The notes beneath the pieces are model-generated. The model searched no databases and was not told the origin of the DNA. It saw only the letters and a program-made list of their open reading frames with translations. Positions 7,401 through 42,921 of a stretch of 64,000 nt of DNA are shown here, piece after piece. The stretch is from the NCBI RefSeq assembly GCF_004348445.1, contig NZ_SMKV01000016.1, positions 1 through 64,000 of the forward strand, in the 5' to 3' direction. Source of the stretch: Saccharopolyspora aridisoli. Lineage in GTDB: Bacteria > Actinomycetota > Actinomycetes > Mycobacteriales > Pseudonocardiaceae. How positions within the stretch are numbered: position 1 is the stretch's first letter; every line of letters starts with the position of its first letter. The translations under genes and the position numbers were made by a program.

Positions 7401-10069
<2,669 letters not shown>

Positions 10070-12058: not shown

Positions 12059-12859
12059 TCAAGGTGCTCCGGTCAAGCCCGTGTAGAGGGCGGGGCGGCG
12101 TTCGGCGAGCTGGGTGTTGACCCGCCTGGCGGAGGCGGTGGCCGTCGGGTCGACGCGGGCGTAGAGCAGCTCCTCACCGCTGCCTGCGCGGGCGAGTTCG
12201 GTGCCGTCGGGGGCGATCAGGCAGGTCTTGCCGATGTAGCTCAACTCGTCCTCGCGCCCGCAGCGATCGACGTAGGCGACGTGCATCTGGTTCTCGTAAG
12301 CCCTTGCCGGGACCAGGGTCTCGGCCACGACGTCCTCCGGCGGCAGCAGCGCCGTCGGCACCACCAGGAACTCGGTGCCCGCCAACGCGTGGGCACGCGC
12401 CGGTTCGGGGAACTCGATGTCGTAGCAGATCAGCAGGCCGATGCGGACGCCGTCGAAGTCGGCTTGAACGACCGGCACATCACCGGGGCGGAAGTGCTCC
12501 TGCTCCATCGGACCGTAGAGGTGGGTCTTGCGGTAAGCCGCGAGCAGCTCGCCGGTCGCGGAGACGAGGAACGACGTGTTGTAGACGGCATCGCCGTCGC
12601 GCTCGGGGTTGCCGTAGACGATCCCGATCCCGTGCTCGGCGGCGATCCGGCGGACGCGCCGGCCGACCGGTCCGTCGGCGGGCTCGGCGAGCCGCTCGAT
12701 GTCGGCGCCGATGTTGTAGCCGGTCACCGACATCTCCGGGCACACCAGCAGCCGGGCGCCTCCGGCTGCGGCGCGGTGCGCGACCTCGTCGAGGCGCGAC
12801 AGCGCCGCCTGCGGGGTGTGGCGTTCGATCGGACCCTGGTCCAGTGCGACGGTGAGCAT
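12059..12859 (-). CDS. Carbon-nitrogen hydrolase (nitrilase superfamily amidase)
   Basis: A 266-residue nitrilase-fold amidase with the complete triad: Glu in LLVCPEMSVTGYN, Lys in YRKTHLYG and Cys in LLICYDIEFPE. Length and motifs fit aliphatic amidases acting on amino-acid-derived amides (5-aminovaleramide, N-carbamoyl or omega-amide substrates). ATG 12859 is preferred to an adjacent TTG 12862; it overlaps the stop of the upstream permease gene by one base (TGATG), showing tight co-translation. The pairing with an amino-acid importer suggests that an imported amine or amide is processed, for example from lysine or arginine breakdown; that is inference. Confidence 0.88.
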   Translation of the reverse strand: MLTVALDQGPIERHTPQAALSRLDEVAHRAAAGGARLLVCPEMSVTGYNIGADIERLAEPADGPVGRRVRRIAAEHGIGIVYGNPERDGDAVYNTSFLVSATGELLAAYRKTHLYGPMEQEHFRPGDVPVVQADFDGVRIGLLICYDIEFPEPARAHALAGTEFLVVPTALLPPEDVVAETLVPARAYENQMHVAYVDRCGREDELSYIGKTCLIAPDGTELARAGSGEELLYARVDPTATASARRVNTQLAERRPALYTGLTGAP

Positions 12860-14289
12860 CAATCCGACAGACTAGAGCGCCGCCGTCCGTAAGCGAAGTA
12901 GACCAGCAGTCCGGCCAGCATCCAGACGCCGAAGGCCACCCACGTCGCCGAGCCCAGGCTCAGCATCAAGTAGCAGCAGGACAGCACACCCAGCATCGGG
13001 ACCAGCGGGACCAGAGGCGCCCGGAACGAGCGAGGCAGCTCCGGGTTGCGCCGTCGCAGGACCACGACCGCCAGGTTGACCAGCGCGAACGCGAACAGTG
13101 TCCCGATGCTGGTGGCGTCGGCGAGCTCGCCGAGCGGCACCACCGCCGCGAGCACCGCGATGAAGCCCGACACCAGCACGGTGTTCGCCCGCGGGACCCC
13201 GGTCCGCTCGTCGACCCGGGAGAACAGGGGCGGGACCAGGCCGTCCCGCGACATCGAGAACAGGATCCGGGTCTGCCCGTACAAGACCGTGAGCACCACG
13301 CTGGCCACCGCCACGATCGCACCCGCCGACAGCAGGACCGACCCCGTCGTGCCGCCGAGCACCTTGCTCAGCGCCGCCTCGGTGCCCTCGAACAGCGTCC
13401 AGTGCATCGCGCCCACCGCGGCCAGCGCGACCAGGCAGTACAGCACCGTGATCAGCACCAGCGACAACATGATCGCGCGCGGCAGGTCGCGCTGCGGATC
13501 GCGGGCCTCCGAACCGGCGGTGGAGGCGGCGTCGAAACCGATGTAGGAGAAGAACAGCTTCCCGGCCGCCGCGCTCACCCCGCCCATGCCCAGCGGCAGC
13601 AGTGGCGAGAAGTTGCCGTCCTGCACGGCGGTGAACGCCAGCGCGCAGAACAGCACCAGCGTCGCCGTCTTGATCAGCACCATCGCGGTGTTGATCCGCG
13701 CGCTCTCCCGCGCGCCGCCCAGCAGTGCGACCATCGCCAGGACCACCACGACAGCGGCCGGCACGTTGAGGATTCCGCCGTCGCCCGGTGGTGAGCTCAG
13801 CGATTCAGGCAGCGACACGCCCGCCACCAGTTGCAAGAGCTCGTTGACGTACTGCCCCCAGCCGACCGCGACGGCCGCGACCGACACGCCGTACTCCAGC
13901 ATCAGGCACCAGCCGCACACCCAGGCGGCCAACTCACCCATCGTCGCGTAGGCGTAGGAGTAGGACGATCCGGCGACCGGGATCATGCCCGCGAGCTCGG
14001 CGTAGGACAGCGCCGAGAGCAGTGCGGTGACACCGGCGATGACGAACGCCAGCGCCACGCCCGGTCCGGCCAGCGGCACCGCCTCGCCCAGCACCACGAA
14101 GATCCCGGTGCCCAGCGTGGCCCCGACGCTGAGCATGGTCAGCTGCCACAGCCCCAGGGAACGCCGCAGCGAGCCGCCCTGACCCTGCCCGCTGTCGGCG
14201 ACGAGGTCCGCGATGGCTTTGCGCCGCATGAGCTGCGCCCCAACGCCGGTCCTCGGTCCGCGCGACGGCGCGGTAGCGTCCTGCACCAC
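12859..14289 (-). CDS. APC-family amino-acid permease (cationic amino-acid transporter-like)
   Basis: A 476-residue APC-superfamily permease with about 12 membrane helices. The signature helix 1 reads SVGATLGTGIFVVLGE; IPVAGSSYSYAYATMGELAA and FFSYIGFDAAS are typical of the CAT/YfnA subgroup that imports basic amino acids. I place the start at GTG 14289 because GGAGG sits five bases upstream; the frame stays open to 14856 but that extension is not permease-like. It overlaps the downstream amidase by one base. Membrane protein; probably an amine or amino-acid importer feeding the amidase. Confidence 0.88.
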   Translation of the reverse strand: MVQDATAPSRGPRTGVGAQLMRRKAIADLVADSGQGQGGSLRRSLGLWQLTMLSVGATLGTGIFVVLGEAVPLAGPGVALAFVIAGVTALLSALSYAELAGMIPVAGSSYSYAYATMGELAAWVCGWCLMLEYGVSVAAVAVGWGQYVNELLQLVAGVSLPESLSSPPGDGGILNVPAAVVVVLAMVALLGGARESARINTAMVLIKTATLVLFCALAFTAVQDGNFSPLLPLGMGGVSAAAGKLFFSYIGFDAASTAGSEARDPQRDLPRAIMLSLVLITVLYCLVALAAVGAMHWTLFEGTEAALSKVLGGTTGSVLLSAGAIVAVASVVLTVLYGQTRILFSMSRDGLVPPLFSRVDERTGVPRANTVLVSGFIAVLAAVVPLGELADATSIGTLFAFALVNLAVVVLRRRNPELPRSFRAPLVPLVPMLGVLSCCYLMLSLGSATWVAFGVWMLAGLLVYFAYGRRRSSLSD

Positions 14290-14541
14290 GAATTCCTCCA
14301 CTGTGGACGCCTCGATGCGCCCGGCTCGATGTGAACTGCCACACCACGCTCGGCGGGCAACGTTAGCGAGGCAACCGTGTACAGAGAAGCCGCATTCGTT
14401 GCGGAGGAAGCCGCCTCGCGATCGAACGTTGCGGCATCCGGAAATACCGGCGATATCGCCGCATCGGCTCCCGCTGGGGCGGGTTGCGCGGTGCCGGGCC
14501 AGGTGGCGAGTAGGGTCGGCGTTTTCGGGAGAGGTGGCGCT

Positions 14542-16601: not shown

Positions 16602-17336
16602 TCACCGCATGAACAGGCCTCCGTTGACGTCCCAGCAGGCGCCGGTGACCGAGTGGGCACCCGGTGATGCGAGCAGGGCGACCACCTCGGCGACGAACGC
16701 GGGGTCGCCGAGGCGGCCCACCGGGATGCTGCGCTGGAACGCCTCCAGGTTCTGCTCGCCGACGATGTCGCGGACCATCGGGGAGTCCTGGGGGCCGGGG
16801 GAGACGGCGTTGACCGTCACGCCCCGGGCGGCGAGCTCGCGGGCGAAGACCTTCGTGGCCGACATGACCGCGCCCTTCGACGACGCGTAGTGTCCGCCCG
16901 TGGCGGTGCCGCCGTTCTGCCCGGCGAGCGAAGCCATGTTCACGATCCGCCCGTATCCCTGCTCGGCCATGTGGGCACCGAAGACCTGGCAGGCGGTGAA
17001 GGTTCCGGTGAAGTTGACGGCCATCACGGCCTCCAGCTCCTGCGGGGTGATCTCGAGCAGCGGCGTGGCGCGGGTGCGGGCCGCGTTGTTCACCAGCACC
17101 CGCACCGGCCCGAAGTCCGCGAGCACCGAGTCCAGGAGGCCGGTGAGCGCGGCGCGGTCGGCCACGTCGGCGGAGTACCCGCGCGCGGTCTCGCCGCTGG
17201 GATCCAGCGCGGTGGCCAGCTCCACCGCCCCGGTGCCGTCGACGTCGGCGACCGCCACGGCCTGACCCTCCGCGTGCAGGCGCCGGGCGATGGCCTCGCC
17301 GAGCCCGTTGGCGCCTCCGGTGACCACGGCGGTCAT
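16602..17336 (-). CDS. iacE: Short-chain dehydrogenase, IacE-like
   Basis: A 244-residue SDR with cofactor motif TGGANGLGEAIA (residues ~6-17), NNAA, catalytic Tyr and Lys in YASSKGAVM, and the structural Ser/Asn. Position immediately after the small dioxygenase subunit, with four-base ATGA overlap, is the conserved order iacA-B-C-D-E of indole-3-acetate degradation clusters. In the characterised pathway IacE acts on a hydroxylated or oxindole-type intermediate. Start ATG 17336; an open frame running up to 17777 is antiparallel noise in the overlap. Symbol assigned from gene order plus family. Confidence 0.78.
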   Translation of the reverse strand: MTAVVTGGANGLGEAIARRLHAEGQAVAVADVDGTGAVELATALDPSGETARGYSADVADRAALTGLLDSVLADFGPVRVLVNNAARTRATPLLEITPQELEAVMAVNFTGTFTACQVFGAHMAEQGYGRIVNMASLAGQNGGTATGGHYASSKGAVMSATKVFARELAARGVTVNAVSPGPQDSPMVRDIVGEQNLEAFQRSIPVGRLGDPAFVAEVVALLASPGAHSVTGACWDVNGGLFMR

Positions 17337-17842
17337 AGGAGGAATCCCGCCGCCGGGACCGCGTCCTCGCTGTTGACCAGCCGGATCACCTTGCGCGCGA
17401 TGGTGTCCTCGGCGGGCGCGGCGCCCAGCCGGACGGTGTAGTCGACGTCGGCGGCCCACAGGTCGTGGATGCCGCGCTTGTGGGCCACCAGCACCTGCGC
17501 GGCGTGCAACGACACCTCCGAGTCGGAGACCTCGGTGGCCACGAACCGGGAGACCGTTCGAACCGTGGTCGCCGAGTCGACCGCGGCGATCGCGTACCCC
17601 TCGGTCATCCGGTTCACCCGCAGCCGCCGCATCCGCTGGTCGTCGTAAACCATGTTGAGGACGTCGTCGAACTCCTCGGCGTCGCGGTCGATCGGGATGA
17701 CGTAGATGCCGTCGTCGGCGTAGAGCCCCTGCCAGGTGACGTAGTCCTTGCGGTCGAGCAGGTCGGCCTCCCGCCACACCAGCTCGATCGCGCGCGACAC
17801 GCGCACGTCGCCGAGCGTCGTCGGGTTCGGCAGATCAGTCAT
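17333..17842 (-). CDS. iacD: Ring-hydroxylating dioxygenase small subunit, IacD-like
   Basis: A 169-residue NTF2-fold beta subunit of aromatic dioxygenases (AIELVWREADLLDRKDYVTW, then YADDGIYVIPIDRD, closing IARKVIRLVNSED). It contributes to the alpha3beta3 enzyme with the Rieske subunit encoded just upstream, whose end it overlaps by eight bases. It overlaps iacE by four. In known iac systems the CD enzyme carries out a late ring or side-chain oxidation leading to catechol; that role is taken from the literature on the family. Confidence 0.8.
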   Translation of the reverse strand: MTDLPNPTTLGDVRVSRAIELVWREADLLDRKDYVTWQGLYADDGIYVIPIDRDAEEFDDVLNMVYDDQRMRRLRVNRMTEGYAIAAVDSATTVRTVSRFVATEVSDSEVSLHAAQVLVAHKRGIHDLWAADVDYTVRLGAAPAEDTIARKVIRLVNSEDAVPAAGFLL

Positions 17843-19133
17843 CGCCCATCACCTGCTTCCACTTCGCGTAGGCGGCGCGCATGCCGGTCTCGTCGGTGAC
17901 GTGGGAGGTCGGCCAGCCCTCCGGCGAGGGCTTCTCGCGTCCCAGCCCGCGGTTGACCATGATCGGCATCTCCGGGGCGCCCGCGGTGCCGCGCTGCACG
18001 CGGTCCCAGCCCTCGGCGTCGTCGGGCGTGCCGAAGCCGAACGGGCCCTGGAAGTGCTCGTGGACGCGCAGCCGCTCGCGGTTGACCGGACCGGTGATCT
18101 CTGCAGGTCCGTCCGGGCCGATCGCGATGTGCTCGACCTCGGTCTCGCCGACGCTGATCGGGCGCAACACCCGGAAGAACGAGATCGACATCGACACGTT
18201 CGGGAACAGGTTGAGGTTGAACCCGGTTCCGTGCATCGCCCGCACGAGCCGCCGGATCTCGACCTGGTCGACACCCACCGACTCCAGCTGGGAGATGAGG
18301 CCGCCGAAGCGGTCCGGGAGCTTCTCCGTGCCCTCGTCGGCGTCGAGATCGGAGTGCTCGGGCACCATCTGCATGACCGAGTGCCCGTTGCCGAGGTCGT
18401 GCGTGGTGGCCGCGGGATCGGTCATGAAGCTCATCATGTTCGCCGTCTCGGCGTCCACGGAGGCCATCCAGGACCGGTGCACGATCGGGAAGTGGTATCC
18501 GTCGGTGGTGTTCTCCAGCTGGATCTTCCAGTTCCCGCTGAACCGGAACCGGTGCGTTCCCAGCACTTTCACCGGGTACCCGCCGCCCTGCTTCATGAAC
18601 CGGTCGATCCACGTCCGCGCATCGCCCAGGAACTCGGCGAGCGGTTCGGCGTCGTCGGCGAACGTCGCGAAGACCATCCCGCCGTAGGACTCGGTGCGCA
18701 GCCGCTTGAGCCCCATGTCGCTGCGGTCCACCACCCCGTTGTAGCCGTCGGGGTAGGGGAGTCCGCGCAACGAGCCGTCCAGGCCGTAGGACCAGGCGTG
18801 GTAGGGGCAGGTGAAACCGTTGGCGCGACCGGTCTTCCGCTCGCACACGCTCGCGCCCCGGTGGCGGCAGCGGTTGAGCATCGTGCGGACCTCGCCGTGC
18901 CGGTCCCGGGTGACGATGACCGGCTGCCTGCCGACGTGGGTCGACTTGAAGGTGCCAGGCCCGGGCAGTTCGCTGTCGTGGGCGACCCACACCCAGGTCC
19001 GCTCGAAGACCCGGGTCATCTCCAGCTCGAAGATCTCCGGGTCGGTGTAGACCCGGCCCGCGACCCGGTCGGGTGCGACGAGGTCGGCGGGCGCGAGGTC
19101 GTGGACGTTGCTCGCGGTGATCTCGGAGTGCAT
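17835..19133 (-). CDS. iacC: Rieske dioxygenase large subunit, IacC-like
   Basis: A 432-residue catalytic subunit. The Rieske [2Fe-2S] ligands are Cys89, His91, Cys109 and His112 (C-x-H-x17-C-x2-H). The mononuclear iron site is in NTTDGYHFPIVHRS. Length and motifs are intact. It lies between iacB and iacD in the canonical order. A Rieske enzyme needs a reductase or ferredoxin (IacF in characterised clusters), and none is encoded in this window. Cytoplasmic. Confidence 0.88.
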   Translation of the reverse strand: MHSEITASNVHDLAPADLVAPDRVAGRVYTDPEIFELEMTRVFERTWVWVAHDSELPGPGTFKSTHVGRQPVIVTRDRHGEVRTMLNRCRHRGASVCERKTGRANGFTCPYHAWSYGLDGSLRGLPYPDGYNGVVDRSDMGLKRLRTESYGGMVFATFADDAEPLAEFLGDARTWIDRFMKQGGGYPVKVLGTHRFRFSGNWKIQLENTTDGYHFPIVHRSWMASVDAETANMMSFMTDPAATTHDLGNGHSVMQMVPEHSDLDADEGTEKLPDRFGGLISQLESVGVDQVEIRRLVRAMHGTGFNLNLFPNVSMSISFFRVLRPISVGETEVEHIAIGPDGPAEITGPVNRERLRVHEHFQGPFGFGTPDDAEGWDRVQRGTAGAPEMPIMVNRGLGREKPSPEGWPTSHVTDETGMRAAYAKWKQVMGDD

Positions 19134-19142
19134 CGGGTCACC

Positions 19143-19508
19143 TCAGTACTCGCGCGGCGTGAGCGCCCGGCCGATCCGGGCCTCGATCTTGGCGTACTTC
19201 CACAGCTTCCAGTCCGACCGTCCTACCTGGACCGTCCGGAAGAGGTTGCAGGCGGCCTTCACGGTCTCCTGGGTGTCGACGTCGGCCAGCAGGTAGCAGG
19301 TCCACGGCCACGAATCGGACGGCCCCACCAGGTGGCCGTCGTCGTCGATGTCGCCGATGAAGTCGACCCCGGGCAGCGCCTTGATGCCGTCCATCATCTC
19401 GACGAAGGCCGTCCACACGTCGCCGGCGGTGACCCCGTCGCGCGGGAGGTCGAAGAAGTTCTGGTTGATGCCGATGCAGAACAGCACGCGCAATGGCGGA
19501 TTGGCCAT
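19143..19508 (-). CDS. iacB: Small conserved protein, IacB-like
   Basis: A 121-residue protein with no membrane segment: NPPLRVLFCIGINQNFF, then DVWTAFVEMMDGIKALPG, a GDIDDDGHLVGPSDSWPWTC core and AKIEARIGRALTPREY. It sits between the genes for the flavin monooxygenase and the Rieske subunit, as iacB does, nine bases before iacC. The repeated alpha-beta pattern with Trp-Pro-Trp suggests a dimeric ferredoxin-like (ABM/EthD-type) fold. IacB is required in known pathways but its chemistry is not well defined; assignment rests on position and size. Confidence 0.7.
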   Translation of the reverse strand: MANPPLRVLFCIGINQNFFDLPRDGVTAGDVWTAFVEMMDGIKALPGVDFIGDIDDDGHLVGPSDSWPWTCYLLADVDTQETVKAACNLFRTVQVGRSDWKLWKYAKIEARIGRALTPREY

Positions 19509-19533
19509 GGGAACTCCTGTGTCGTGGGCGGCG

Positions 19534-20667
19534 TCAGCGGAATCCTGGGACGGTCGGCGGCCTGCCCAGCAGCACGGCGCCCGCGGCGTCGTACATCGAG
19601 GGCATCAGGAACGCGTGCAGCGCGGGCACCTGCGAGTCCTGGCGCATGCGTTGCAGCGGGTGGGAGTTGTCGATGGTGGAGGTCCCGGAGAAACCGCAGA
19701 CCTCGTGCACGACCTGCGCCGCCGTCGCGGCCAGGTGGGTGGCCGAGAGCCGGACCAGCGCGTTGTGCTCGTCGCTGACCTCGCCGCCGCGGGCCACGGC
19801 GTCCCAGACCTCCTCGGCGACCTCGTAGTAGAACGCCCTCGCCGAGCGCATCGCGGCCACGGCTTGGGCGTACCCGGTGCGGTAGTAGGCGCGGTCGGCC
19901 AGCGGTGGAGCTCCGGTGACACCCGTGCGAGAACCGGCCCGGGCGGCGAAGTCCAGCGCGGCCTGCGCTACCCCGAGACCGACGGCGGCGTGCACCTGCG
20001 CCTGGTAACCGATGGTGGGGTAGCGGTAGAGCGGTTCGTCCACGCACGCCCCGCCGCCCCGGATGAACGTCCACTCGCGCGGCACCTCGACTTCGTCGAC
20101 GACCACGTCGAAGGAGCCCGACGCCCGCATCCCCGAGACGTCCCAGTCCCGCACGATCTCGACCTGATCGGGCCGCAGCATCGCCGCGCGCGGCCGGTTG
20201 TCGCCGTCGGCGTCGCCGGGGATGCCGACGCTGAGGACGTCGGCGGCCATGCAGCCGCTGGCGAACCGCCACCGCCCCTTGACCAGGTAGCCGCGCTCGG
20301 TCGGGGTGACGGGGTTGACCGGGAACATCGCGCCCCCGTACACCACGTCGGGCCCGTCGGCGTAGAGCTCGGCCTGGGTGTCGAGCGGCAGGCACGCCAG
20401 GTACGTCCCGGCCGAGCCGAAACCGGCCACCCACCCGGTCGACCCGTCCACCGACGCGATGCGCTCGACGCCGCGCAGGAACTCCGGCGGCGGCATCGGC
20501 TCACCGCCGAACCTCTCAGGCGTGGAGGCGCGGAACAGGCCGAGCTCCTTGAGCCGGCCGACGAAGTCAGGAGGTACGTAGGACTGCTCGTGGAACTCAT
20601 CGCGGCGCTCGGTGAGCTCGGCCAGCACGGCCTCCCACACCGCGTCGCCGGCGAATCCCTGGGACAT
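19534..20667 (-). CDS. iacA: Flavin-dependent monooxygenase of acyl-CoA-dehydrogenase fold, IacA-like
   Basis: A 377-residue group D flavin monooxygenase: acyl-CoA dehydrogenase fold with GSTGWVAGFGSAGTYLA, KGRWRFASGCMAADVLSVG, and VHEVCGFSGTSTIDNSHPLQ. IacA performs the first hydroxylation of indole-3-acetate using reduced flavin from IacG. It is the first gene of the minus-strand iacABCDE run, 25 bases before iacB, and has the regulon promoter (20697-20765) directly upstream. HsaA-like or other two-component monooxygenases are the alternative, but the gene order supports IacA. Confidence 0.82.
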   Translation of the reverse strand: MSQGFAGDAVWEAVLAELTERRDEFHEQSYVPPDFVGRLKELGLFRASTPERFGGEPMPPPEFLRGVERIASVDGSTGWVAGFGSAGTYLACLPLDTQAELYADGPDVVYGGAMFPVNPVTPTERGYLVKGRWRFASGCMAADVLSVGIPGDADGDNRPRAAMLRPDQVEIVRDWDVSGMRASGSFDVVVDEVEVPREWTFIRGGGACVDEPLYRYPTIGYQAQVHAAVGLGVAQAALDFAARAGSRTGVTGAPPLADRAYYRTGYAQAVAAMRSARAFYYEVAEEVWDAVARGGEVSDEHNALVRLSATHLAATAAQVVHEVCGFSGTSTIDNSHPLQRMRQDSQVPALHAFLMPSMYDAAGAVLLGRPPTVPGFR

Positions 20668-20696
20668 GGCACGCTCCTGTCGTCGGGTTGTGATCC

Positions 20697-20765
20697 GACG
20701 CTATGCAGCCGCGACCCGACGCGACATCGGGATTGCCCAGACACCCACTAGGGGAATCCTTCAGG
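20697..20765 (-). promoter_or_regulatory. iacA promoter with shared regulon operator
   Basis: On the minus strand a TAGCGTCG -10 element starts at 20703. An 18-base operator, read on plus as CTAGGGGAATCCTTCAGG (20748-20765), has its near edge 45 bases upstream of that -10, and a second half-conserved box (GGGATTGCCC on plus) lies at 20729-20738. The same layout recurs at 22334-22403 and 27193-27261. The distance, about -57 from the presumed transcript start, suits an activator such as the FixJ-like regulator encoded nearby. Confidence 0.7.
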
Positions 20766-20821
20766 CGCGGTGGCGGGATGACCTATCCGCTCACCGGGCC
20801 ACCGGGATCTAGCCTGGCCCG

Positions 20822-22312
20822 ATGGTGGTCGACTCGCAGGCACCCGAACTGGTGGATTCCGACTTCGTCGCGATGATGCGCGCCTCCCACCTGTGCGTGC
20901 TGATCCACGACGCGGCGACCAAGAACATCCTGTGGGCCAACCCGGCGGCCTGCGCGCTGCTGGAGTGGAGTGTCACCGAGTTGCGCCCGCTCAAGGCCAA
21001 CCACATGAGCAGCTCCGCCCAGCAGTACGACCGGGTGATCGGCCGCGCCTGGTTGCACGAGGCGGTCGAGAGAGGCATGAGCCGCATCGAATGGCACTAC
21101 CGGTCCAGGTCGGGCCGGGTGATCCCCACCGACGCGATCGCGGTGCGCGTCGAACTGGCCCAAGGACCTGCGGTGATGGTGCAGTTCCGGGACGTCGAGC
21201 GGGAGCAGCGCGTGGAGCGCGAGCTGCGCCAGACCACCTCCTACGTCGACGCCCTGGCGCGGCACACCTCGACGGTCGCGTTCATGCTCGACTCGGTCGG
21301 CGCGATCCGCTTCGCCACCGACACGGCCCTGGCGCACCTCGGCCTGTCGGGTGACGCCGACCCACCGGTCGGCCTGCTGCTGGAGTCACACGCCCGGCTG
21401 CGCCGGGACGGCACCGAGGTCAGCTGGGAGCAGGCGGCCGCCGCGGCCGACCCGGTCGAGCCGGTGCGACTGGAGATCCCGGGAGCCGATCCGGTGACGC
21501 TGGAGGGCAGCCTGGAGCGGCTGCGCGACGTCGACGCGTTCCTGATGATCCTGCACGACGTCTCCACCCGAGTTCGCGGTGAGGAGCGGCGCGAGCTGGA
21601 GCTGCGCCACGAGAACTACCTGGCCCGCTACAACGCGATGGGCGACATGGCGATGGCCATCGCCCACGAGCTCGGCCAGCCGCTCGCCGCGGCGGCGAAC
21701 TTCATCGCCGGGGTGCACGCCCGCGCGCAGGTGCTGGAAACCTCCGGGCAGGTTCCGGAGGGCACGACCGGACAGCTCGCGTACGGGCTGGACAGCGCCA
21801 ACCGCCAGATCGATCGGGTCTCGGCGATCGTCAGCGCACTGCGGTCGTTCGTCGGCCACCTCGAACACGTCGAGCAGGTCGCCGACCTCAACGCGGTGAT
21901 CGATGAGTGCCTCTACTTCGTGCGGCTGCGCGCCGCGGCCGTCGGCGTGGAGGTCGAGGTGCGGTTGAGCGAGCAGCCGGTGCTGGTGCGCTGCGAACGG
22001 GTGCTGACCGGGCAGGTGGTGCTCAACCTGTGCTTCAACGCGGTCGACGAGATCGTCGAGGGCGACGCCGAGCAGCGGCGCATCGAACTGGTCACCGAAA
22101 CCCGGGAGGCAGGCGGCACCGTCACCGTCGCCGACCGGGGCCGGGGTGTGCGCAAGGACGTGTTCGCCGAGTCGTTCACCAGCAAGGAGCACGGCAGCGG
22201 CATCGGACTCGCGCTCTGCTACCGCATCATCAACCGCCAGCACGGCTCCATCTGGTGCCGACCGCGCGACGGCGGCGGCTCGGTGTTCGGCTTCTCCTTG
22301 CCCTCGGCGTAG
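20822..22312 (+). CDS. PAS-domain sensor histidine kinase (FixL/TodS-like)
   Basis: A 496-residue soluble kinase without membrane helices, so it senses a cytoplasmic signal. A PAS domain spans residues ~15-135 (HLCVLIHDAATKNILWANPA), with a less clear second sensor region at ~140-260. The dimerisation helix has phospho-acceptor His282 in AIAHELGQPLAAAANF. The ATPase has the N box (NLCFNAVDEI), G1 (DRGRGV) and G2 (GSGIGLAL). TAGCCT at 20810-20815 suggests a leaderless transcript beginning at the ATG. It lies inside the iac locus, divergent from iacA; its probable partner is the FixJ-like regulator at 24408-25031. Signal likely indole-3-acetate or a catabolite (inference). Confidence 0.88.
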   Translation: MVVDSQAPELVDSDFVAMMRASHLCVLIHDAATKNILWANPAACALLEWSVTELRPLKANHMSSSAQQYDRVIGRAWLHEAVERGMSRIEWHYRSRSGRVIPTDAIAVRVELAQGPAVMVQFRDVEREQRVERELRQTTSYVDALARHTSTVAFMLDSVGAIRFATDTALAHLGLSGDADPPVGLLLESHARLRRDGTEVSWEQAAAAADPVEPVRLEIPGADPVTLEGSLERLRDVDAFLMILHDVSTRVRGEERRELELRHENYLARYNAMGDMAMAIAHELGQPLAAAANFIAGVHARAQVLETSGQVPEGTTGQLAYGLDSANRQIDRVSAIVSALRSFVGHLEHVEQVADLNAVIDECLYFVRLRAAAVGVEVEVRLSEQPVLVRCERVLTGQVVLNLCFNAVDEIVEGDAEQRRIELVTETREAGGTVTVADRGRGVRKDVFAESFTSKEHGSGIGLALCYRIINRQHGSIWCRPRDGGGSVFGFSLPSA

Positions 22313-22333
22313 GAGGCCGCTGCCGGTGGGGCT

Positions 22334-22403
22334 CTAGGGGAAAGCTTCAGGTCGCGCCGAGGAATCCTCGATACCGGCAAGACCGCCGACGGCCGTAGTT
22401 TCG
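22334..22403 (+). promoter_or_regulatory. iacG promoter with shared regulon operator
   Basis: CTAGGGGAAAGCTTCAGG (22334-22351) matches the iacA operator at 16 of 18 positions. Its near edge is 45 bases from a TAGTTTCG -10 element starting at 22396, the same distance as at iacA. A 13-base palindrome, CGAGGAATCCTCG (22358-22370), lies between them where iacA and the transporter promoter carry a related AATC box. iacG starts at 22430. Confidence 0.7.
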
Positions 22404-22429
22404 AGAGGGATCAGCGGGGAGGAGGCACC

Positions 22430-22933
22430 GTGGCGGATTCGACGCCCGCCCAGCGGGAGTTCCGCGCGGCGATGGCGAACCTCTCGTCCGGGGTCAACAT
22501 CGTCACCACCGACGGTCCGCGCGGACGCGCCGGGATCACGGTCAGCGCGGCCTGCTCGGTCACCGACGACCCGCCGACCATGCTGGTGTGCGTGCACCGA
22601 GCGAGCCGCGCCCACGACGTGCTGGCGGGCAACGAACGGGTCTGCGTCAACGTCCTCGGCTCGGGGCAGCAGGACCTGGCGCTGCGGTTCGCGGGCGCGA
22701 CCGGGCTGCCGATGCACGAGCGGTTCGCCGGGGTGGTCTGCGACTTCGCGGAAGTGCCCGTGCTGCGCGACGCCGCCGCGTCGGTCATCGGACACCTCGC
22801 GCAGGTGCGCGCGCAGGGTTCGCACTCGGTGATGTTCGTGGAGGTCGAGCGTGTGATCACGCGCTCTGGCAGCGGCGCCCTGGTGTACTTCCAGCGGGAG
22901 TTCCACAGCCTCGCAGGAGCACGTCGTGGATGA
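22430..22933 (+). CDS. iacG: Flavin reductase, IacG-like
   Basis: A 167-residue FMN reductase of the split-barrel (flavin_reduct/HpaC) family. It has FRAAMANLSSGVNIVTTDGP, the flavin-contact segment GITVSAACSVTDDPPTMLVC, and the closing HSVMFVEVERV with YFQREFHSL. It supplies reduced flavin to IacA. Start GTG 22430 sits behind GGGGAGGAGG. First gene of the plus-strand operon iacG-unknown-iacH; its end overlaps the next start by eight bases. Confidence 0.85.
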   Translation: MADSTPAQREFRAAMANLSSGVNIVTTDGPRGRAGITVSAACSVTDDPPTMLVCVHRASRAHDVLAGNERVCVNVLGSGQQDLALRFAGATGLPMHERFAGVVCDFAEVPVLRDAAASVIGHLAQVRAQGSHSVMFVEVERVITRSGSGALVYFQREFHSLAGARRG

Positions 22934-23189
22934 CCGGAACATGACTCTGACCTGCTACAACGACACCCACGGCTACGGGTGGCGACACGTCGACCTGTTC
23001 GTGCACGACGCCTCCGGCCGCGAGGTCGAGTGGGTGCACTGGCTGGTCGCCGCCGACGGCCCGGAGGCCGCCGACGCCGCCACCGCCGAGGTGGAGCCGC
23101 TGCTGCGCCGCACCTCGCCGTGGCGGCACGGCCTCAGCGCCTCCGGCATGGACTACTGGGTCGCCGACGCCGAGTGGGAGCGACCGTGA
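22926..23189 (+). CDS. Unknown 87-residue protein in the iac operon
   Basis: I do not recognise this gene. It encodes 87 residues, acidic, with no membrane helix, and rich in aromatic residues (CYNDTHGYGWRHVDLFVHDA, VEWVHWLVAA, SGMDYWVADAEW). Start GTG 22926 overlaps iacG by eight bases, and its end overlaps the amidase start as GTGA. This double translational coupling between two pathway genes argues that it is real and belongs to indole-acetate breakdown, perhaps as a small ring-intermediate-binding or accessory protein. An alternative ATG at 22941 would shorten it by five residues. Confidence 0.7.
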   Translation: MDDRNMTLTCYNDTHGYGWRHVDLFVHDASGREVEWVHWLVAADGPEAADAATAEVEPLLRRTSPWRHGLSASGMDYWVADAEWERP

Positions 23190-24411
23190 CGCTGTGGAAC
23201 CCGTGGTCGCTGCGCGAACTGGTCACCGACCTGGCCGCTGGGCGCACCACCCCCGCCGAGGCGCTGGAGCGCAGCCGCAGCAGGATCGCCGACACCGACC
23301 CCGTCCTCCGGGCGTGGGTCGAGCACCTGCCCGAACCCGCTCTCGCGGGAGGCCCGCTGCGCGGAGTTCCGCTGGCGGTCAAGGACATCATCGACGTCGC
23401 AGGTGCGCCCACCCGCTGCGGTTCGGCGCTCCGCGCCGATTCGCCACCCGCGACCGACGACGCCGCGATCGTGCGGGCGTGGCGGGCAGCCGGTGCCACG
23501 CCGATCGGCAAGACCGTGACCACCGAGTTCGCGTTCTTCTCCCCGGGGCCCACCCGCAACCCGGCCGCGCCCGAGCACACACCGGGCGGGTCGTCCAGCG
23601 GATCGGCCGCAGCCGTCGCCGCCGGGCAGGTCCCGCTCGCGCTCGGCTCGCAGACCGCTGGCTCGGTCACCCGGCCGCGTTCTGCGGCGTCGCCTCGTTG
23701 GTGCTCGGCCACGGCAGGTTCCCGGCCGACGGCGTCGTGGGCCTCGCACCGAGCCTGGACTCGCACGGCGTGTTCACCGCTACGGCGGGCGACCTCGCCC
23801 TGGCCTGGTCGGCGCTCACCGGCACCGCGGAACCGCCGCCGAACCGCGCACCTCGCCTGCTGCGCTGGAACGCGTCCGCGCTGGGCGTCGACCACGAGAT
23901 GGGCGCGGCGCTGGAGAAGACCTGCGCGGCCCTCACCGGCCGAGGCGCGGTGGTCACCGCCTTCCCGGAGGAACAGCTCATCGCCGAACTCACCGAAGCC
24001 CACCCGGTGGTCATGGCCTACGAGGCGGCGCGGGAACGCGCCGACGAACTCGCCGCGGCTGACGAGCTCAGCGACCACCTCGCCACCCTGCTGCGCTACG
24101 GAGCGACCATCACGGACGCCGACCACCAGGCGGCCCGGCGGGTCGTCGTCGAGGCGGAACGGCACCTGGCGCGGCTCACCGAGTCCTGCCACGCCATCAT
24201 CGGTCCCGCCGCCCAGGGGGCCGCTCCGCGCGGTCTCGACGCGACCGGTGATCCGGTGATGAGCCGCGCCTGGCAGGCGCTCGGCCTCCCGACGACCACC
24301 GTCCCCGGCCCGCGCGGTGGAAGCGGATTGCCGCTCGGAATTCAGCTCATCGGCCACGACAGCGGTGAAACCACCTTGCTGGCAACGGCCAGGGGAGTCG
24401 AAGAAGCCTAG
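23186..24411 (+). pseudogene. iacH: Amidase-signature enzyme, IacH-like, with one-base frameshift
   Basis: The amidase-signature family core is present: PLAVKDIIDVAGAPT with the catalytic Lys, and GGSSSGSAAAVAAGQ with the Ser-cisSer pair, followed by GSQTAGSVTRP in the first frame. Between 23674 and 23677 one base appears to be missing. The protein continues in the next frame as AFCGVASLVLGHGRFPADGV through to GIQLIGHDSGE at the end. Without the frameshift it would be about 408 residues, a normal length. Start GTG 23186 overlaps the previous stop. IacH is an amidase-family step of the pathway. Codon use and motifs are otherwise intact, so either a very recent inactivation or an assembly error. 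Confidence 0.8.
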
Positions 24412-25031
24412 AACTCCACCCCGTGCAGGAGGAGGTCCCGGACGAGCGTGCCCAGGCTCTCGGAACCGGTCTTGGCCTTGATGCGGGCCCGGTGCACGTC
24501 AACGGTTTTCACACTCGTGCCGAGGTCGCGGGCGATGAGCTGGCTCGACCGCCCGTCCACGACCAGCCGCAGCACCTCCCGCTCACGCGGCGTCAGCGAC
24601 GCGACCCGCCCGCGCACGCGCAGCCGCTCGGCGTGGGCGGCGAAGCACTGCTCCGCCTCGCGCAGCTGGTCCTGGACGACGTCGAGCATGCGCTGCGGCT
24701 CGTACGGCTTCTCCAGGAAGTCCACCGCGCCCAGGCGCATCGCCCGCACCGACATCGGGATGTCGCCGTGGGCGGAGCAGAAGATCACCGGGGCCGGGTA
24801 CTCGCGTTCGGACAGCTCCTCCTGCAGCTGGAAACCGCTCAGGCCGGGCATCCGGACGTCCACGACCACCACACCGGGCTCGCCGGGGTCGAACTCGGCG
24901 AGGAACCCGGCGGCGTCGGGATAGGTGAGGGCCTGAACACCGACGGTCTGCAGCAGGAACACCAGGGACCGCCGGTGCGCCTCGTCGTCGTCGACGATGT
25001 GCACCACCGGCGCGGGAAGCGTCGTCGTCAT
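24408..25031 (-). CDS. FixJ/NarL-type response regulator
   Basis: A 207-residue response regulator. Receiver: acidic pocket Asp14-16, phospho-acceptor Asp58 (VVVVDVRMPG), and conserved Lys in FLEKPYEP. It ends with a LuxR-type helix-turn-helix (LTPREREVLRLVVDGRSSQL, ARDLGTSVKTVDVHRARI). The FixJ-like receiver pairs naturally with the FixL-like kinase at 20822. Start ATG 25031. Its 3' end overlaps the amidase end by four bases on the opposite strand. It is the best candidate to bind the three CTAGGGGA operators of the locus. Confidence 0.9.
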   Translation of the reverse strand: MTTTLPAPVVHIVDDDEAHRRSLVFLLQTVGVQALTYPDAAGFLAEFDPGEPGVVVVDVRMPGLSGFQLQEELSEREYPAPVIFCSAHGDIPMSVRAMRLGAVDFLEKPYEPQRMLDVVQDQLREAEQCFAAHAERLRVRGRVASLTPREREVLRLVVDGRSSQLIARDLGTSVKTVDVHRARIKAKTGSESLGTLVRDLLLHGVEF

Positions 25032-25117
25032 CGTTGCTCCAGGCGAACCAGGGGAAGACCGCTGTCGAGGGGCTGCGTTGCTCAGCGGTCGAGCAGCGGC
25101 ACTGGGCGGCGCTGTGG

Positions 25118-25227
25118 AATCCGCGCCACTGCTCGGGTATGCCAACACGGCGTCGCGGCGTGCTCGCCACAGCACCGCTTGCGGACCGCGGCGGTGCGAG
25201 CTGATTCCCTCACCAGGAACAGCGGCT
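25118..25227 (+). repeat. Dispersed intergenic repeat, copy B
   Basis: It matches copy A (10134-10229) from AATCCGCG through CGGCGTCGCGGC and GCTCGCCA to the core GGCGGTGCGAGCTG, then TTCCCTCACCAGG and AACAGCGGCT (25190-25227). The core can fold on GCTCGCCA...CACCGC with GCGGTGCGAGC. It lies in the 257-base gap upstream of the response regulator, so it might influence that gene's leader or simply be a mobile relic. Confidence 0.7.
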
Positions 25228-25288
25228 CCGCCGCGCGCCTGAGCAGATCCTAGGCAAGCGGTCCGAGCCTGGGATAGGTCCGTTGGCG

Positions 25289-25843
25289 TTAGTCCCGCAG
25301 CAGCACCGAGGTCGTCGGGTGGTCGGAGGTGAAGCGGTCGGGAAGCGGAGCGGTGAACACGTTCTCCGTGCGGGTGCGGGTGATCTTCCAGCCTTCGGGG
25401 TCGCGGCGGAAGGCGTTGTTGAGCCGGCTGGAGCGCAGCAGAGCGCTGCCGTCGGCGAACAGCCAGGGCTGCACGTGGATCCACAGCCCGGTGGCCTGAT
25501 CGCCGCTCACGTGGATCTGCTCGGAGGTCAGGTAGTGCGCGTTGAGCAGCAGCGCCGGGTCCCCCTCCCGGCTCCAGAACCGCTCGAAGTGCGCCCGGAT
25601 CGCCGCGTGCCCCTCGGCGCGGCCGAACTGGCCTTCGTAGTGCTCGCCGACGCCCTCCCAGACCGCGTCGGAGGCGTAGAGCTCCATGATCGCGTCGATG
25701 CGCTCGGCGTCGTCGCGCACCGCCAACTCCGGGCACGGCGAGTCGCACAGGAACATGTAGCGGGCCTGGATGCGGCGGATGTCCGCCTCGGCCTCCAGGG
25801 CCTCGATCCGCCTGGTCAGCGCGGTGATGGTCGACTCGGTCAT
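25289..25843 (-). CDS. SnoaL/NTF2-like protein in the iac locus
   Basis: A 184-residue NTF2-fold protein related to SnoaL-like dehydratases and dioxygenase small subunits. A coiled N-terminal helix (TALTRRIEALEAEADIRRIQ) precedes YMFLCDSP, SDAVWEGVGEHYEGQFGRAE and a closing W-K-I-T-R-T-R-T. Start ATG 25843 overlaps the transporter stop by four bases, so they form one operon whose promoter carries the regulon operator. It might correspond to the poorly characterised IacI of other clusters, but I cannot show this. Possible role: cyclase, dehydratase or isomerase on an oxindole intermediate. Confidence 0.75.
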   Translation of the reverse strand: MTESTITALTRRIEALEAEADIRRIQARYMFLCDSPCPELAVRDDAERIDAIMELYASDAVWEGVGEHYEGQFGRAEGHAAIRAHFERFWSREGDPALLLNAHYLTSEQIHVSGDQATGLWIHVQPWLFADGSALLRSSRLNNAFRRDPEGWKITRTRTENVFTAPLPDRFTSDHPTTSVLLRD

Positions 25844-27144
25844 CGGGCTCCTCTCGTGCGCGCGGGCGCGGTTTCGGGCAGGCGGAGCAGGCACAGCAGG
25901 GACACCAGCAGACCGGCGGCGATGTACCAGCCGACAGACGTCGAGCTGCCGGTCACGGCGATCAGGCGGTTGGCGATCATCGGTGCGAACCCGCCGCCGA
26001 GCACGCTGCCGATCTGGAACGCCAAACCCACGCCGGACTGCCGCTGCTCGACGGTGAACAGCTCCGAGTAGTAGGTCAGCAGCGGGCCCCACAGGAATCC
26101 ACCGATGGTGAACCCGATGATGACCGCCAACCCCACCGCGAGCGGCGTGCCGATGTCGGCGATCCGGAACATCACCAGCGCGTACACCAGCGCACCCACC
26201 GCGCCGGAGATCATCACCGGTTTGCGGCCCACCCGGTCCGACAACCAGCAGGCCAGCACGATCGTGATCGCGTGGCACAGCAGCCCGACCATGCTGCCGA
26301 TCACGATCGGCTGTCGAGGCAGCGCGAGCCCCTGCGGTGCGGCGGCCGTGGCGTAGGACAGCATGAACGTCGCCAGGATGAACATGTTGGCGTTCAGGCC
26401 CAGGTTCACCCCCGCAGCCAGCAGCAGCCGTCTCCGGTCCTGCCGGAACACCGCGAGGAACGGCACCTCGCGGCCGCGGGCGAGGGCGACGAACTCCGGT
26501 GTCTCGGCGATGCCGCGGCGCGCCCACACGCCGAGTGCCAGCACGAAACCGCCGATCAGGAACGGCACGCGCCAGCCCCAGGCGATCACGGCCTGCATCG
26601 GCATCAGCAGCACCAGTGCGAACGCCAGGTTGGCCAGCAGCTGCCCGAGCGGCGAGCCCATCGTCGCGAACGACCCGTACAGCCCTCGCCGGTGCGGCGG
26701 TGCGTGCTCGACGGCCAGCACCGCGGCACCGCCGATCTCCCCGCCGCGCGCGAGCCCGTGCAACATGCGCAGCGCGATCAGCAGCAGCGGAGCGGTGATG
26801 CCGATCGCCAGGTAGGACGGCAGCACGCCCATCAGCAGCGTCGAGGAACCCATCACCACGAACGTCAGCTGCAGCGAGAACCGGCGCCCGTAGCGGTCGC
26901 CGAGCCACCCGAACAGCAGCGCCCCCAGCGGGGTGAGCAGGAACCCGACGGCGAAGGTCGCCAGTCCCACGAACGAGCCGAACCACTCGTCGCCGCTGAT
27001 GAAGAAGATCTGCCCGAACACCAGGGCCGCGGCCGTGCCGTAGATGGCGAAGTCGTAGAACTCCAGCGTGGAACCCACCCCGCTGGCCAGGCCGATCCGT
27101 CTGACACCGGCGCGCGAGGCGCCGTCCTCACTGAGCACGGGCAT
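25840..27144 (-). CDS. MHS-family MFS transporter, probable indole-acetate importer
   Basis: A 434-residue, 12-helix major facilitator of the metabolite:H+ symporter group (ProP/KgtP/ShiA-like). It shows GSTLEFYDFAIYGTAAALVF at the start, the loop 2-3 motif GWLGDRYGRRFSL, and ARGGEIGGAAVLAVEH. Such symporters import organic acids with protons. It is translationally coupled to the SnoaL-like gene and carries the same operator as iacA and iacG, so uptake of the pathway substrate is the natural inference. ATG 27144. Confidence 0.85.
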   Translation of the reverse strand: MPVLSEDGASRAGVRRIGLASGVGSTLEFYDFAIYGTAAALVFGQIFFISGDEWFGSFVGLATFAVGFLLTPLGALLFGWLGDRYGRRFSLQLTFVVMGSSTLLMGVLPSYLAIGITAPLLLIALRMLHGLARGGEIGGAAVLAVEHAPPHRRGLYGSFATMGSPLGQLLANLAFALVLLMPMQAVIAWGWRVPFLIGGFVLALGVWARRGIAETPEFVALARGREVPFLAVFRQDRRRLLLAAGVNLGLNANMFILATFMLSYATAAAPQGLALPRQPIVIGSMVGLLCHAITIVLACWLSDRVGRKPVMISGAVGALVYALVMFRIADIGTPLAVGLAVIIGFTIGGFLWGPLLTYYSELFTVEQRQSGVGLAFQIGSVLGGGFAPMIANRLIAVTGSSTSVGWYIAAGLLVSLLCLLRLPETAPARTRGAR

Positions 27145-27192
27145 GGCGAGTCCTGTCGGTCGAGGAGACGGGCGCGTCCGCGTTGTCGCTCA

Positions 27193-27261
27193 ACGCTAGG
27201 GACGGCCCCGAGACGCCGCCATTGGTGATTTCCCGACCTGCCACTAGGGGATTTCCCTACC
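27193..27261 (-). promoter_or_regulatory. Transporter promoter with shared regulon operator
   Basis: On the minus strand TAGCGTTG starts at 27198. The operator, on plus CTAGGGGATTTCCCTAC (27244-27260), has its near edge 46 bases upstream, and the secondary box GTGATTTCCC lies at 27225-27234, exactly 19 bases from the operator start as at iacA. This copy is the most symmetrical (CTAGGG...CCCTA), showing that the site is a dyad. Confidence 0.7.
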
Positions 27262-27518
27262 GCAGCGCCGCCGCGCGGATCGCCAGGAGCAGTGGCAGCG
27301 AACTGGATTCCCGGAGCGACTGCGGAAGGCTGGGCGCTTCCAGAACGTTGGTGCCCGCGCGGAGCGCGCGGCTCATCGTGGCCAGGTCGATGTCTGCGTC
27401 GTCCTGGTGATAGCCCATCGACGGCCAGCGCCGGCTTTCCCGGACCCGTACCGCTGTCGGAGACGTAGAGGGCCGGGCATTCCTTGCCGGCGCACTCGGA
27501 CACCTCGTGCAGCTTCAT
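27257..27518 (-). pseudogene. Small conserved protein split by a one-base frameshift
   Basis: From ATG 27518 the minus strand reads MKLHEVSECAGKECPALYVS, then DSGTGPGKPALAVDG. At a GGG run (about 27413-27416) the frame must slip by one to continue YHQDDADIDLATMSRALRAG and onward to the stop at 27257. The joined product (~86 residues) resembles a family of short actinobacterial proteins that open M-x-L-H-E-V-x-x-C-x-G-x-x-C-P-x-V-x-V-S-D and have no known function. An extra G in the homopolymer may be a mutation or a read error. Its tail overlaps the transporter operator. Confidence 0.5.
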
Positions 27519-41548: not shown

Positions 41549-42310
41549 ATGGATCTCAACGCGGACCTGGCCGAGGGTTTCGGCCGCTGGGAACTCGGCG
41601 ACGATCAAGCTCTGCTGGGCGTGGTGACCAGCGCCAACGTGGCCTGCGGCTTCCACGCCGGAGATTCCGTGGTGATCCGCGCGGCGGTGACCCGGGCCGC
41701 CGAGCGCGACGTGGCGGTCGGCGCGCAGGTCGGCTACCGGGACCTGGCCGGGTTCGGCCGCCGGTTCATCGACGTGCCGCCGCGAGAGCTGACCGACGAC
41801 GTGATCTACCAGATCGGCGCGCTGTCCGGGTTCGCCCGCGTGGCCGGCACCGAGGTCGCCTACGTCAAGCCGCACGGCGCCCTCTACAACGCGATCGTGC
41901 ACCACGCCGAGCAGGCCGCCGCCGTGGTCGAAGCGGTCCGCTCCTACGACCCGGGACTGGCCGTGCTGGGCCTGCCCGGTTCGGAATGGCTCTCCCAGGC
42001 CGAGCAGGCCGGGCTGCGGACCTTCCGCGAGGCCTTCGCCGACCGCGCCTACACGCCGGAAGGCACCCTCGTGTCGCGGCGAGAACCCGGCGCGGTGCTG
42101 CACGACCCCGAGGAGATCGCCCAGCGCTGCCTTGACCTCGCCGCGGGCGAACCGATCCGCGCCGTCGACGGCAGCGAGATCCAGGTGTGCGCCGATTCGA
42201 TCTGCGTGCACGGCGACAGCCCGGGAGCGGTCGCCATCGCCCAGGCCGTGCACGACCGGCTCAGCGGTGCCGGCGTTGCGCTGCGGCCGTTCGTGGCGGG
42301 AGGAAGCTGA
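41549..42310 (+). CDS. pxpA: 5-oxoprolinase subunit PxpA (LamB/YcsF family)
   Basis: A 253-residue TIM-barrel subunit: [20 protein letters not shown] (family signature with metal/acid residues), [11 protein letters not shown] and VKPHGALYN. PxpABC hydrolyses 5-oxoproline to glutamate with ATP. I take ATG 41549, five bases after GAGGG; an upstream in-frame GTG at 41531 overlaps the transporter end but has no ribosome site. Ends with TGATG overlap into pxpB. Confidence 0.93.
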
Positions 42311-42921
42311 TGCGCTTCCTTCCCTGCGCCGACTCGGGACTGCTGATCGAACTGGCCGATCTGCAGGAGGTGCACGCGTTGTACGCGGCGCTCGCCGACT
42401 CGCCGCCCGAAGGCGTCATCGACCTCGTGCCGGCGGCGAGAACGCTGCTGCTGCAACTGGATCCGCAGCGGTCCGACGTCAAGGCGGTCGAGGCCGCGGT
42501 GCGCGCCGCCGAACCGCGCGCCGGCCTGCGCGAGGTGGGCGAGCAGCTGGAGGTGCCGGTGGTCTACGACGGCGCCGACCTCGCCGAGGTCGCCCGGCTG
42601 ACCGGGCTCACCGAGCGAGAGGTCGTCGACAAGCACACCGGAGCGGAGTGGAAGGTCGCCTTCGGTGGATTCGCACCGGGTTTCGGCTACCTCAGCGGCG
42701 GTCCGCAAGACCTGGTGGTGCCTCGCCGGTCCGAGTCGCGCACTGCCGTTCCCGCCGGAGCCGTGGGGCTGGCGGGCGCGTTCAGCGGCATCTACCCGCG
42801 GGAGTCGCCCGGCGGCTGGCAGCTCATCGGGCACACCGACCTGCAGGTCTTCAGCATCGACCGCGATCCGCCCGCGCTCCTGCGCCCGGGTGTGCGAGTG
42901 CGGTTCCGGGAGATCGGATGA
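42310..42921 (+). CDS. pxpB: 5-oxoprolinase subunit PxpB (KipI-like)
   Basis: A 203-residue subunit: FLPCADSGLLIELADLQEVH, VDKHTGAEWKVAFGGFAPGF, GYLSGGPQDLVVPRRS, and the closing LIGHTDLQVFSIDRDPPALL. It is full length, starts at ATG 42310 and overlaps pxpC as ATGA. Cyclophilin-like fold; forms the ATP-using component with PxpC. Confidence 0.93.
   Translation: MRFLPCADSGLLIELADLQEVHALYAALADSPPEGVIDLVPAARTLLLQLDPQRSDVKAVEAAVRAAEPRAGLREVGEQLEVPVVYDGADLAEVARLTGLTEREVVDKHTGAEWKVAFGGFAPGFGYLSGGPQDLVVPRRSESRTAVPAGAVGLAGAFSGIYPRESPGGWQLIGHTDLQVFSIDRDPPALLRPGVRVRFREIG

Follow-up and report, generated by a model that had tools for sequence, protein, structure and literature searches.

Sequence, gene order, and phylogeny point to an actinobacterial iac locus

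Does an actinomycete of the genus Saccharopolyspora carry its own locus for breaking down the plant auxin indole-3-acetate (IAA), and if so, how is this locus controlled and how far does its pathway reach? The question is raised by a gene cluster in the window analyzed here, i.e., the first 64 kb of contig C8 (149,208 bases) in the 6.0-Mb, 83-contig assembly of Saccharopolyspora aridisoli. Gene calling on the window and family scans placed iacA, iacB, iacC, iacD, and iacE in this order on the minus strand (20667 down to 16602). Opposite them, on the plus strand, lie a PAS histidine kinase gene, the flavin reductase gene iacG, a conserved gene for a protein of 87 amino acids (aa), and the amidase gene iacH; beyond iacH, a FixJ-type regulator gene, iacI (SnoaL_4), and an MHS transporter gene follow on the minus strand (Table 1). 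The initial annotation had recognized the iacA-E order, iacG and iacH facing it, the FixL/FixJ-like pair, the SnoaL-like protein, and the transporter, and all of these were recovered (the order also through homologues), except that the amidase is not one open frame and that the conserved 87-aa gene between iacG and iacH had been overlooked. Its wording of a “complete-looking” locus is too strong: iacA-E, iacG, and iacI are present, but iacH is frame-broken and iacF was not found in the locus.

The assignment to iac is supported by sequence, order, and phylogeny. Iac-type homologues on Streptomyces and Rhodococcus plasmids and in Burkholderiaceae and Pseudomonas share 47 to 54% identity with the IacA of the window (54% and 48% for the iac-linked proteins of the Streptomyces and Rhodococcus plasmids, respectively, and 50 to 54% for those in Burkholderiaceae and Pseudomonas iac loci), and the non-Iac homologues found in relatives 32 to 36%. 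We built a quick IacA tree of 104 rows, leaving out L031 and six second records of the same genomes; its supports are approximate likelihood ratio test (SH-aLRT) values only, and L022, L024, and others have long branches. Here, the window's IacA groups with the Iac-type rows, in keeping with the affiliation proposed initially, and a branch with a support of 99 separates these 100 rows from the 4 used as outgroup. IacA also matches the families and solved structures of HsaA, Rv3094c, and p-hydroxyphenylacetate hydroxylase, with which it has a two-component flavin mechanism in common; its score against the HsaA model is 134 bits (cutoff, 450).

The nearest named relative is S. endophytica (G016), with an IacA that is 95% identical. 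Because every gene of the locus has a syntenic counterpart there (93 to 97% identity; 94% and 86% for the two amidase pieces), the arrangement is not due to chance. The ratio of nonsynonymous to synonymous substitutions (dN/dS) against S. endophytica lies between 0.06 and 0.37 for iacA-E, iacG, iacI, and the genes for the kinase, regulator, transporter, and 87-aa protein; purifying selection acts on iacA-E, iacG, iacI, and the kinase and regulator genes. The SnoaL protein of the window corresponds to IacI, being 35 to 43% identical to the protein encoded after iacB in loci of Pseudomonas and Burkholderiaceae; IacI has been described as a SnoaL-fold protein (PMC7225977).

More distant actinobacteria hold the same core. 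Plasmids of Streptomyces sp. NBC_00564 (NZ_CP107787) and Rhodococcus sp. USK13 (NZ_CP069241) share the iacA-B-C-D-E order and carry a homologue of the 87-aa gene, but unlike the window they have iacF after iacE and adjacent cat genes: iacA-E, a PDR/VanB reductase gene (iacF), and flavin reductase, amidase, muconate cycloisomerase-like, catA, and catC genes in Streptomyces, and iacA-F adjoining catA and catB-like genes in Rhodococcus. In the flanks fetched for these two loci, no kinase/regulator pair was found. IacC is 66% and 68% identical to its counterparts on the Streptomyces and Rhodococcus plasmids and 57 to 62% identical to those in Pseudomonas, Herbaspirillum, and Burkholderiaceae loci. 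The same-genus loci L037 and L039 to L043, as well as locus L050, combine iacA-E, iacF, iacG, iacH, iacI, the kinase and regulator genes, and catB-catA-catC; iacF and catB-catA-catC are linked to pathway genes in 6 of 13 same-genus IacA-bearing relatives (L037 and L039 to L043), and also in L050, L060, and L062, which fits catechol as the end product.

Taken together, these data suggest the following scheme. The MHS protein would import the substrate, and IacA with its reductase IacG would convert IAA to 2-oxindole-3-acetate (Ox-IAA), which IacE, with IacB alongside, would convert to 3-hydroxy-2-oxindole-3-acetate (DOAA). A lower module of IacCD, IacI, IacH, and probably the 87-aa protein would lead from DOAA toward catechol, to be cleaved by an unlinked catechol 1,2-dioxygenase. 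A cytosolic kinase would respond to a signal inside the cell (probably IAA or a product), and the FixJ-type regulator would turn on three transcription units through a common inverted-repeat box. For Caballeronia glathei, IacA and IacE have been reported to yield Ox-IAA and DOAA (PMC7225977). We put the probability that this is, as a whole, an actinobacterial, two-component-controlled iac locus for auxin breakdown at roughly 80%; judged from its genes, it is plausible that the strain degrades auxin or did so recently.

Iac or IAA breakdown in actinobacteria and two-component control of iac are already in print: iac has been predicted in Nocardiaceae (PMC12462448), and Rhodococcus appears among the genera with reported complete aerobic IAA degradation (PMC11676955). 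The variant described here is an actinobacterial form with the 87-aa gene and without linked iacF and cat genes.

The two-component pair is shared with proteobacterial iac loci and accompanies a recurrent inverted-repeat box

The regulatory and transport set had initially been called distinct, a claim that the comparison with proteobacteria does not support. Most of the iac loci fetched from Pseudomonas, Caballeronia, Burkholderia, Paraburkholderia, and Herbaspirillum are flanked by homologous kinase and regulator genes (identities in Table 1); L118 lacks a match to either and L107 a match to the regulator, and some loci end at contig ends. MHS-type transporters, in turn, occur in 7 of 11 Burkholderiaceae loci. 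The window thus resembles the IacS/LuxR type of locus known from Paraburkholderia phytofirmans PsJN, C. glathei, and Pseudomonas (represented here by other Pseudomonas, Caballeronia, and Paraburkholderia loci) in IacA-E, IacG, IacH, IacI, the kinase, and the FixJ/LuxR-type regulator. It differs in phylum and gene order, in having the 87-aa gene and no linked iacF or cat genes, and in its out-of-frame iacH. For four Pseudomonas strains and PsJN, a putative two-component system LuxR/IacS has been noted in the iac loci, with the suggestion that Pseudomonas evolved or obtained it independently (PMC11630574). By sequence homology, such a kinase/regulator pair is present beside iac in a second phylum.

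Since the kinase has no predicted membrane segment (maximum 19-residue hydropathy, 1.34), it likely senses an intracellular signal. A single Acinetobacter MarR query (IacR) gave no tblastn match in the window, a weak negative given how widely MarR proteins diverge.

We collected the region between the iacA and kinase genes from 73 loci, six of which are second records of genomes already included. A seed pattern picked out 39 of the 52 actinobacterial regions (23 distinct sites); the position weight matrix (PWM) derived from them describes an inverted repeat of the form TAGGGGAWTYCTTCAG. Of the other 13 actinobacterial regions, which lack the seed, 10 have a best score that no more than 1 in 100 shuffles attained. 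Among the 21 proteobacterial regions, all held out, 11 (from Pseudomonas and Herbaspirillum) beat all 100 shuffles, and L129 has a site at a different place that beats all but 2. The Burkholderiaceae have a related box upstream of iacA, the one-base-shorter variant TAARGAWWTCTTYAG, which occurs in 10/10 of their regions but in 0/2,000 shuffles and 0/63 other regions; this pattern was written after viewing the Burkholderiaceae sequences and is descriptive.

The three top-scoring places in the 64-kb window lie upstream of iacA/kinase (25.2), iacG (18.0), and the transporter-iacI-regulator unit (11.2), compared with a mean of 1.10 sites at ≥10.9 and 2 sites in total at ≥17.5 in 60 shuffled windows. 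Since 11.2 is within the chance range, the third box rests on its position and on the higher scores at the same place in relatives (15.3 in S. endophytica and 28.1 in both G008 and S. flava); in S. dendranthemae (L036), nothing at this place scores ≥14. Further sites lie before catB or between catB and iacI in L037, L041, and L042, and 8 of the 44 loci scanned have no site of ≥14 (L022, L050, L083, L095, L101, L103, L108, and L124). The box precedes all three transcription units of the locus, if weakly in the third case, and is met again upstream of iacA in other actinobacteria and in proteobacteria. We infer that the FixJ-type regulator binds it. With a related box in front of iacA in Burkholderiaceae, Pseudomonas, and Saccharopolyspora, this regulation becomes testable, and the box might serve as a marker for auxin-responsive genes in actinobacteria.

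A conserved 87-aa gene tracks the Rieske oxygenase in the actinobacteria examined

The 87-aa protein has no match in Pfam or NCBIfam, and in PHROG only one at an E value of 0.16, yet it is conserved (59 to 81% identity to the window's copy in a 20-row alignment; 78 to 97% within the window's clade). Among 150 relatives, including the strain's own genome, the gene is present in 19, which are the identical 19 that hold IacC (E ≤ 1e-80). IacA homologues of at least 53% identity occur in 21 of the 150, namely, these 19 plus G051 and G072, both of which have iacA, iacB, and iacE (A-B-E) but neither iacC and iacD nor the 87-aa gene. As 14 of the 19 genomes belong to one genus, they are not independent; an in-frame stop interrupts the copies of G074 and G554.

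On plasmids, the gene is present in 3 of 72,556 records, all three with an IacA homologue. IacA homologues themselves are found in 42 records, of which at least 5 among the 40 listed are actinobacterial, and the two of these five without the 87-aa gene are from Nonomuraea gerenzanensis, where iacA alone was found in the flanks, and Streptomyces camelliae. A follow-up profile search in 21 further genomes recovered the gene in 5/5 actinobacteria that have IacC but no copy near iacA, three of these copies being at most about 1.5 kb away from iacC, iacI, or the kinase/regulator genes. The same search found it in 0/4 A-B-E-only and 0/6 iacA-alone actinobacterial genomes, all 10 without IacC at E ≤ 1e-60, and in 0/6 proteobacterial genomes.

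This distribution suggests that the role of the 87-aa protein is tied to the IacCD step in actinobacteria and that proteobacteria either do without it or use something unrelated. We consider it somewhat better than an even bet that the protein is dedicated to the lower auxin pathway of actinobacteria and works with the IacCD oxygenase between DOAA and catechol, for example, as a chaperone or as a product-handling or ring-opening partner. In 2020, PMC7225977 described the route between DOAA and catechol, and what the other Iac proteins do, as unfilled, and among the papers listed we found no later one that fills these steps, although no search was aimed at that point alone. The 87-aa gene tracking IacC and the natural A-B-E loci offer direct handles on this gap and on IacB.

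Reduced loci suggest an upper A-B-E module

Among the 104 rows of the tree, 71 loci hold iacC, iacB, and iacE; 6 hold iacB and iacE without iacC, 3 iacC without iacB or iacE, 1 iacB alone, and 1 iacC and iacE without iacB. The remaining 22 have none of them, a number that includes the 4 outgroup rows and loci that end early. One of the six (L095) has IacC elsewhere on its contig, leaving five A-B-E-only genomes (G051/L071, G072, L103, L108, and L127); L103 is a metagenome-assembled genome and possibly incomplete, and near the L127 genes lies a partial match (33%) to a Rieske alpha subunit, below the threshold of the genome search. The label of the six rows changes six times on the tree, with at least three changes forced by starred branches, and reduction to A-B-E therefore appears to be repeated.

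The retention of iacB with iacE where iacC and iacD are gone fits an upper module that ends at DOAA and includes IacB, which is predicted to adopt a ferredoxin-like beta-alpha-beta fold (mean predicted local distance difference test [pLDDT] score, 83). These loci thus suggest an A-B-E module. This agrees with an earlier hypothesis, reported in PMC7225977, that made IacB an accessory of IacE; the same paper itself found IacE to be sufficient in Escherichia coli.

Other partial loci were seen as well. L086 and L087 (Streptomyces) and L083 (Gordonia) have iacA with iacC, iacD, iacF, iacH, iacI, and the 87-aa gene and no iacB or iacE counterpart nearby; IacB lies elsewhere in the genomes of L086 and L083, the two searched. 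In L057, L070, L072, L075, L080, and L091 (Nonomuraea, Lentzea, Pseudonocardia, and Nocardioides), the IacA homologue is 59 to 66% identical, and neither IacB (E ≤ 1e-8) nor IacC (E ≤ 1e-60) was found in the genomes. As L091 retains the kinase, regulator, flavin reductase, and box, its monooxygenase may stand alone under similar control. Two further loci look reduced: L047 (G003), with iacI in two pieces and no kinase, flavin reductase, amidase, or regulator match, and L048 (G072), with a kinase matched over its first 79 residues only.

How far does the pathway reach?

Several observations weigh against an intact, box-controlled route from IAA to catechol. Three actinobacterial intergenic regions (L093, L094, and L103) show no box above shuffles, and 9 of the 21 held-out proteobacterial regions have none under the actinobacterial matrix. 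Several indole derivatives are substrates of Caballeronia IacA and IacE (PMC7225977). In the window, a Streptomyces IacF query found no iacF in the locus (best match elsewhere in the genome, 44%), no cat genes are linked to it, and iacH is out of frame. The N-terminal part of the amidase is in frame with open reading frame (ORF) 22979-24259 and the C-terminal part with ORF 23194-24411; Pfam Amidase positions 43 to 176 are read in one ORF and positions 158 to 445 in another, with tblastn pieces at 23234-23746 and 23662-24408. The last pathway steps are left open by the broken iacH and the unlinked iacF and cat genes. The amidase step in this strain is probably either missing or performed by another enzyme, and IacCD would have to borrow a reductase from elsewhere in the strain. 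A CatA homologue, 65% identical to the Streptomyces query, is encoded at C12:43187, unlinked to the locus.

One explanation, which we regard as rather doubtful, is that the pathway is being dismantled and that auxin is merely inactivated to DOAA or a later intermediate without mineralization. The broken iacH would fit, as would its absence from the locus in G008 and S. flava (G015), which have only matches of ≤39% elsewhere in their genomes; iacF and the cat genes are unlinked in all six loci of the window's clade (L033 ends at a contig end on the iacH side), and five genomes elsewhere keep A-B-E without IacC. However, the purifying selection on iacA-E, iacG, iacI, and the kinase and regulator genes argues against it, and the amidase itself does not clearly look long decayed. 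Against S. endophytica, its two pieces have dN/dS values of 0.17 and 0.45, and the value for the C-terminal part (0.45, and 0.40 to 0.41 in the window's two other pairs) compares with 0.35 to 0.38 in the three pairs of relatives with an open iacH. With iacH open in three close relatives (G016, G010, and G001), the break may also be a very recent event or an assembly error. That it is a sequencing or assembly error, so that the locus would be intact except for iacF, is a little easier to accept than dismantling but still short of an even chance: there is a single frame change, both halves are otherwise conserved, and the N-terminal part holds the Lys and Ser of the amidase triad (to which we presume the usual triad roles apply), whereas the two close relatives without iacH in the locus indicate that the gene is dispensable in the clade.

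The broad range of the C. glathei enzymes, which convert indole-3-propionate and indole-3-butyrate (PMC7225977), means that the physiological substrate could be another 3-substituted indole, or a related aromatic, with IAA a side substrate only. In the IacA tree, the six Saccharopolyspora rows of the window's clade (a starred set) form a branch of their own, apart from the six same-genus rows with full clusters, which would be compatible with another substrate. Nevertheless, we deem this improbable, given that the pathway genes and the regulator pair are common to Pseudomonas- and Caballeronia-type iac loci and that no extra enzyme pointing to another substrate was seen in the locus. An auxin-degrading iac locus thus remains our preferred reading.

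Feature coordinates and neighboring genes

TABLE 1 Features of the iac locus in the 64-kb window
Feature	Position	Strand	Basis
iacE, short-chain dehydrogenase, 244 aa	16602..17336	-	Short-chain dehydrogenase/reductase families; TGxxxGLG and YxxxK; 56% to Streptomyces NBC_00564 iac counterpart
iacD, Rieske oxygenase beta subunit, 169 aa	17333..17842	-	PF00866, E 1.5e-10; 48% to Streptomyces counterpart
iacC, Rieske oxygenase alpha subunit, 432 aa	17835..19133	-	PF00355/PF00848; motifs CxH-C..H and DGYHFPIVH
iacB, 121 aa, without family	19143..19508	-	Homologues in 83 other loci (including 6 second records of same genomes), 51-97%
iacA, flavin-dependent monooxygenase, acyl-CoA-dehydrogenase fold, 377 aa	19534..20667	-	Homology and tree
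Inverted-repeat box between divergent iacA and kinase gene	20746..20767		PWM 25.2; site in PWM training set
PAS histidine kinase, FixL-like (IacS-like)	20822..22312	+	HATPase_c; H-box IAHELGQPLAA; 35-40% to kinases beside proteobacterial iac
Second box, upstream of iacG	22332..22353		PWM 18.0; outside training set
iacG, HpaC-type flavin reductase, 167 aa	22430..22933	+	PF01613, 5e-33; HpaC 165 bits, under cutoff of 206
87-aa conserved gene, unnamed (“o87”)	22926..23189	+	Without family; co-occurs with iacC
iacH, amidase, frame change near 23,660-23,700	23195..24411	+	PF01425 split across two frames
FixJ/LuxR-type response regulator, 207 aa	24408..25031	-	FixJ model 202 bits, under cutoff of 255; 51-56% to regulators beside proteobacterial iac
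iacI, SnoaL-fold protein, 184 aa	25289..25843	-	PF13577, 9.6e-18
MHS/MFS transporter, 434 aa	25840..27144	-	TIGR00883 352 bits, under cutoff of 443; 35-39% to transporters in 7/11 Burkholderiaceae loci
Third, weaker box, upstream of MHS-iacI-regulator unit	27241..27263		PWM 11.2; chance range on score alone

We take the iad operon of Variovorax to include a Rieske-type oxygenase as well. It is likened to the locus in Table 1 by description, as an operon dedicated to auxin degradation, and has limited homology to iac (PMC10374108).

In G008, the MHS transporter gene was matched as two pieces in different frames (L034:5436-6732). A carbon-nitrogen hydrolase gene within 12059-14301 of the window adjoins the iac locus and retains this place in both S. 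endophytica (L032) and S. dendranthemae (L036), as does its neighbor, presumably an amino acid permease-like gene; the hydrolase might have to do with auxin precursors or stand in for the amidase. Farther out, 7485-10069 appears to encode a Fur-type regulator followed by what we take, from the start of the translation, to be a catalase-peroxidase-like protein, and the three genes at 41549-43769, behind a transporter gene, presumably form a set resembling LamB/YcsF plus 5-oxoprolinase-type proteins.

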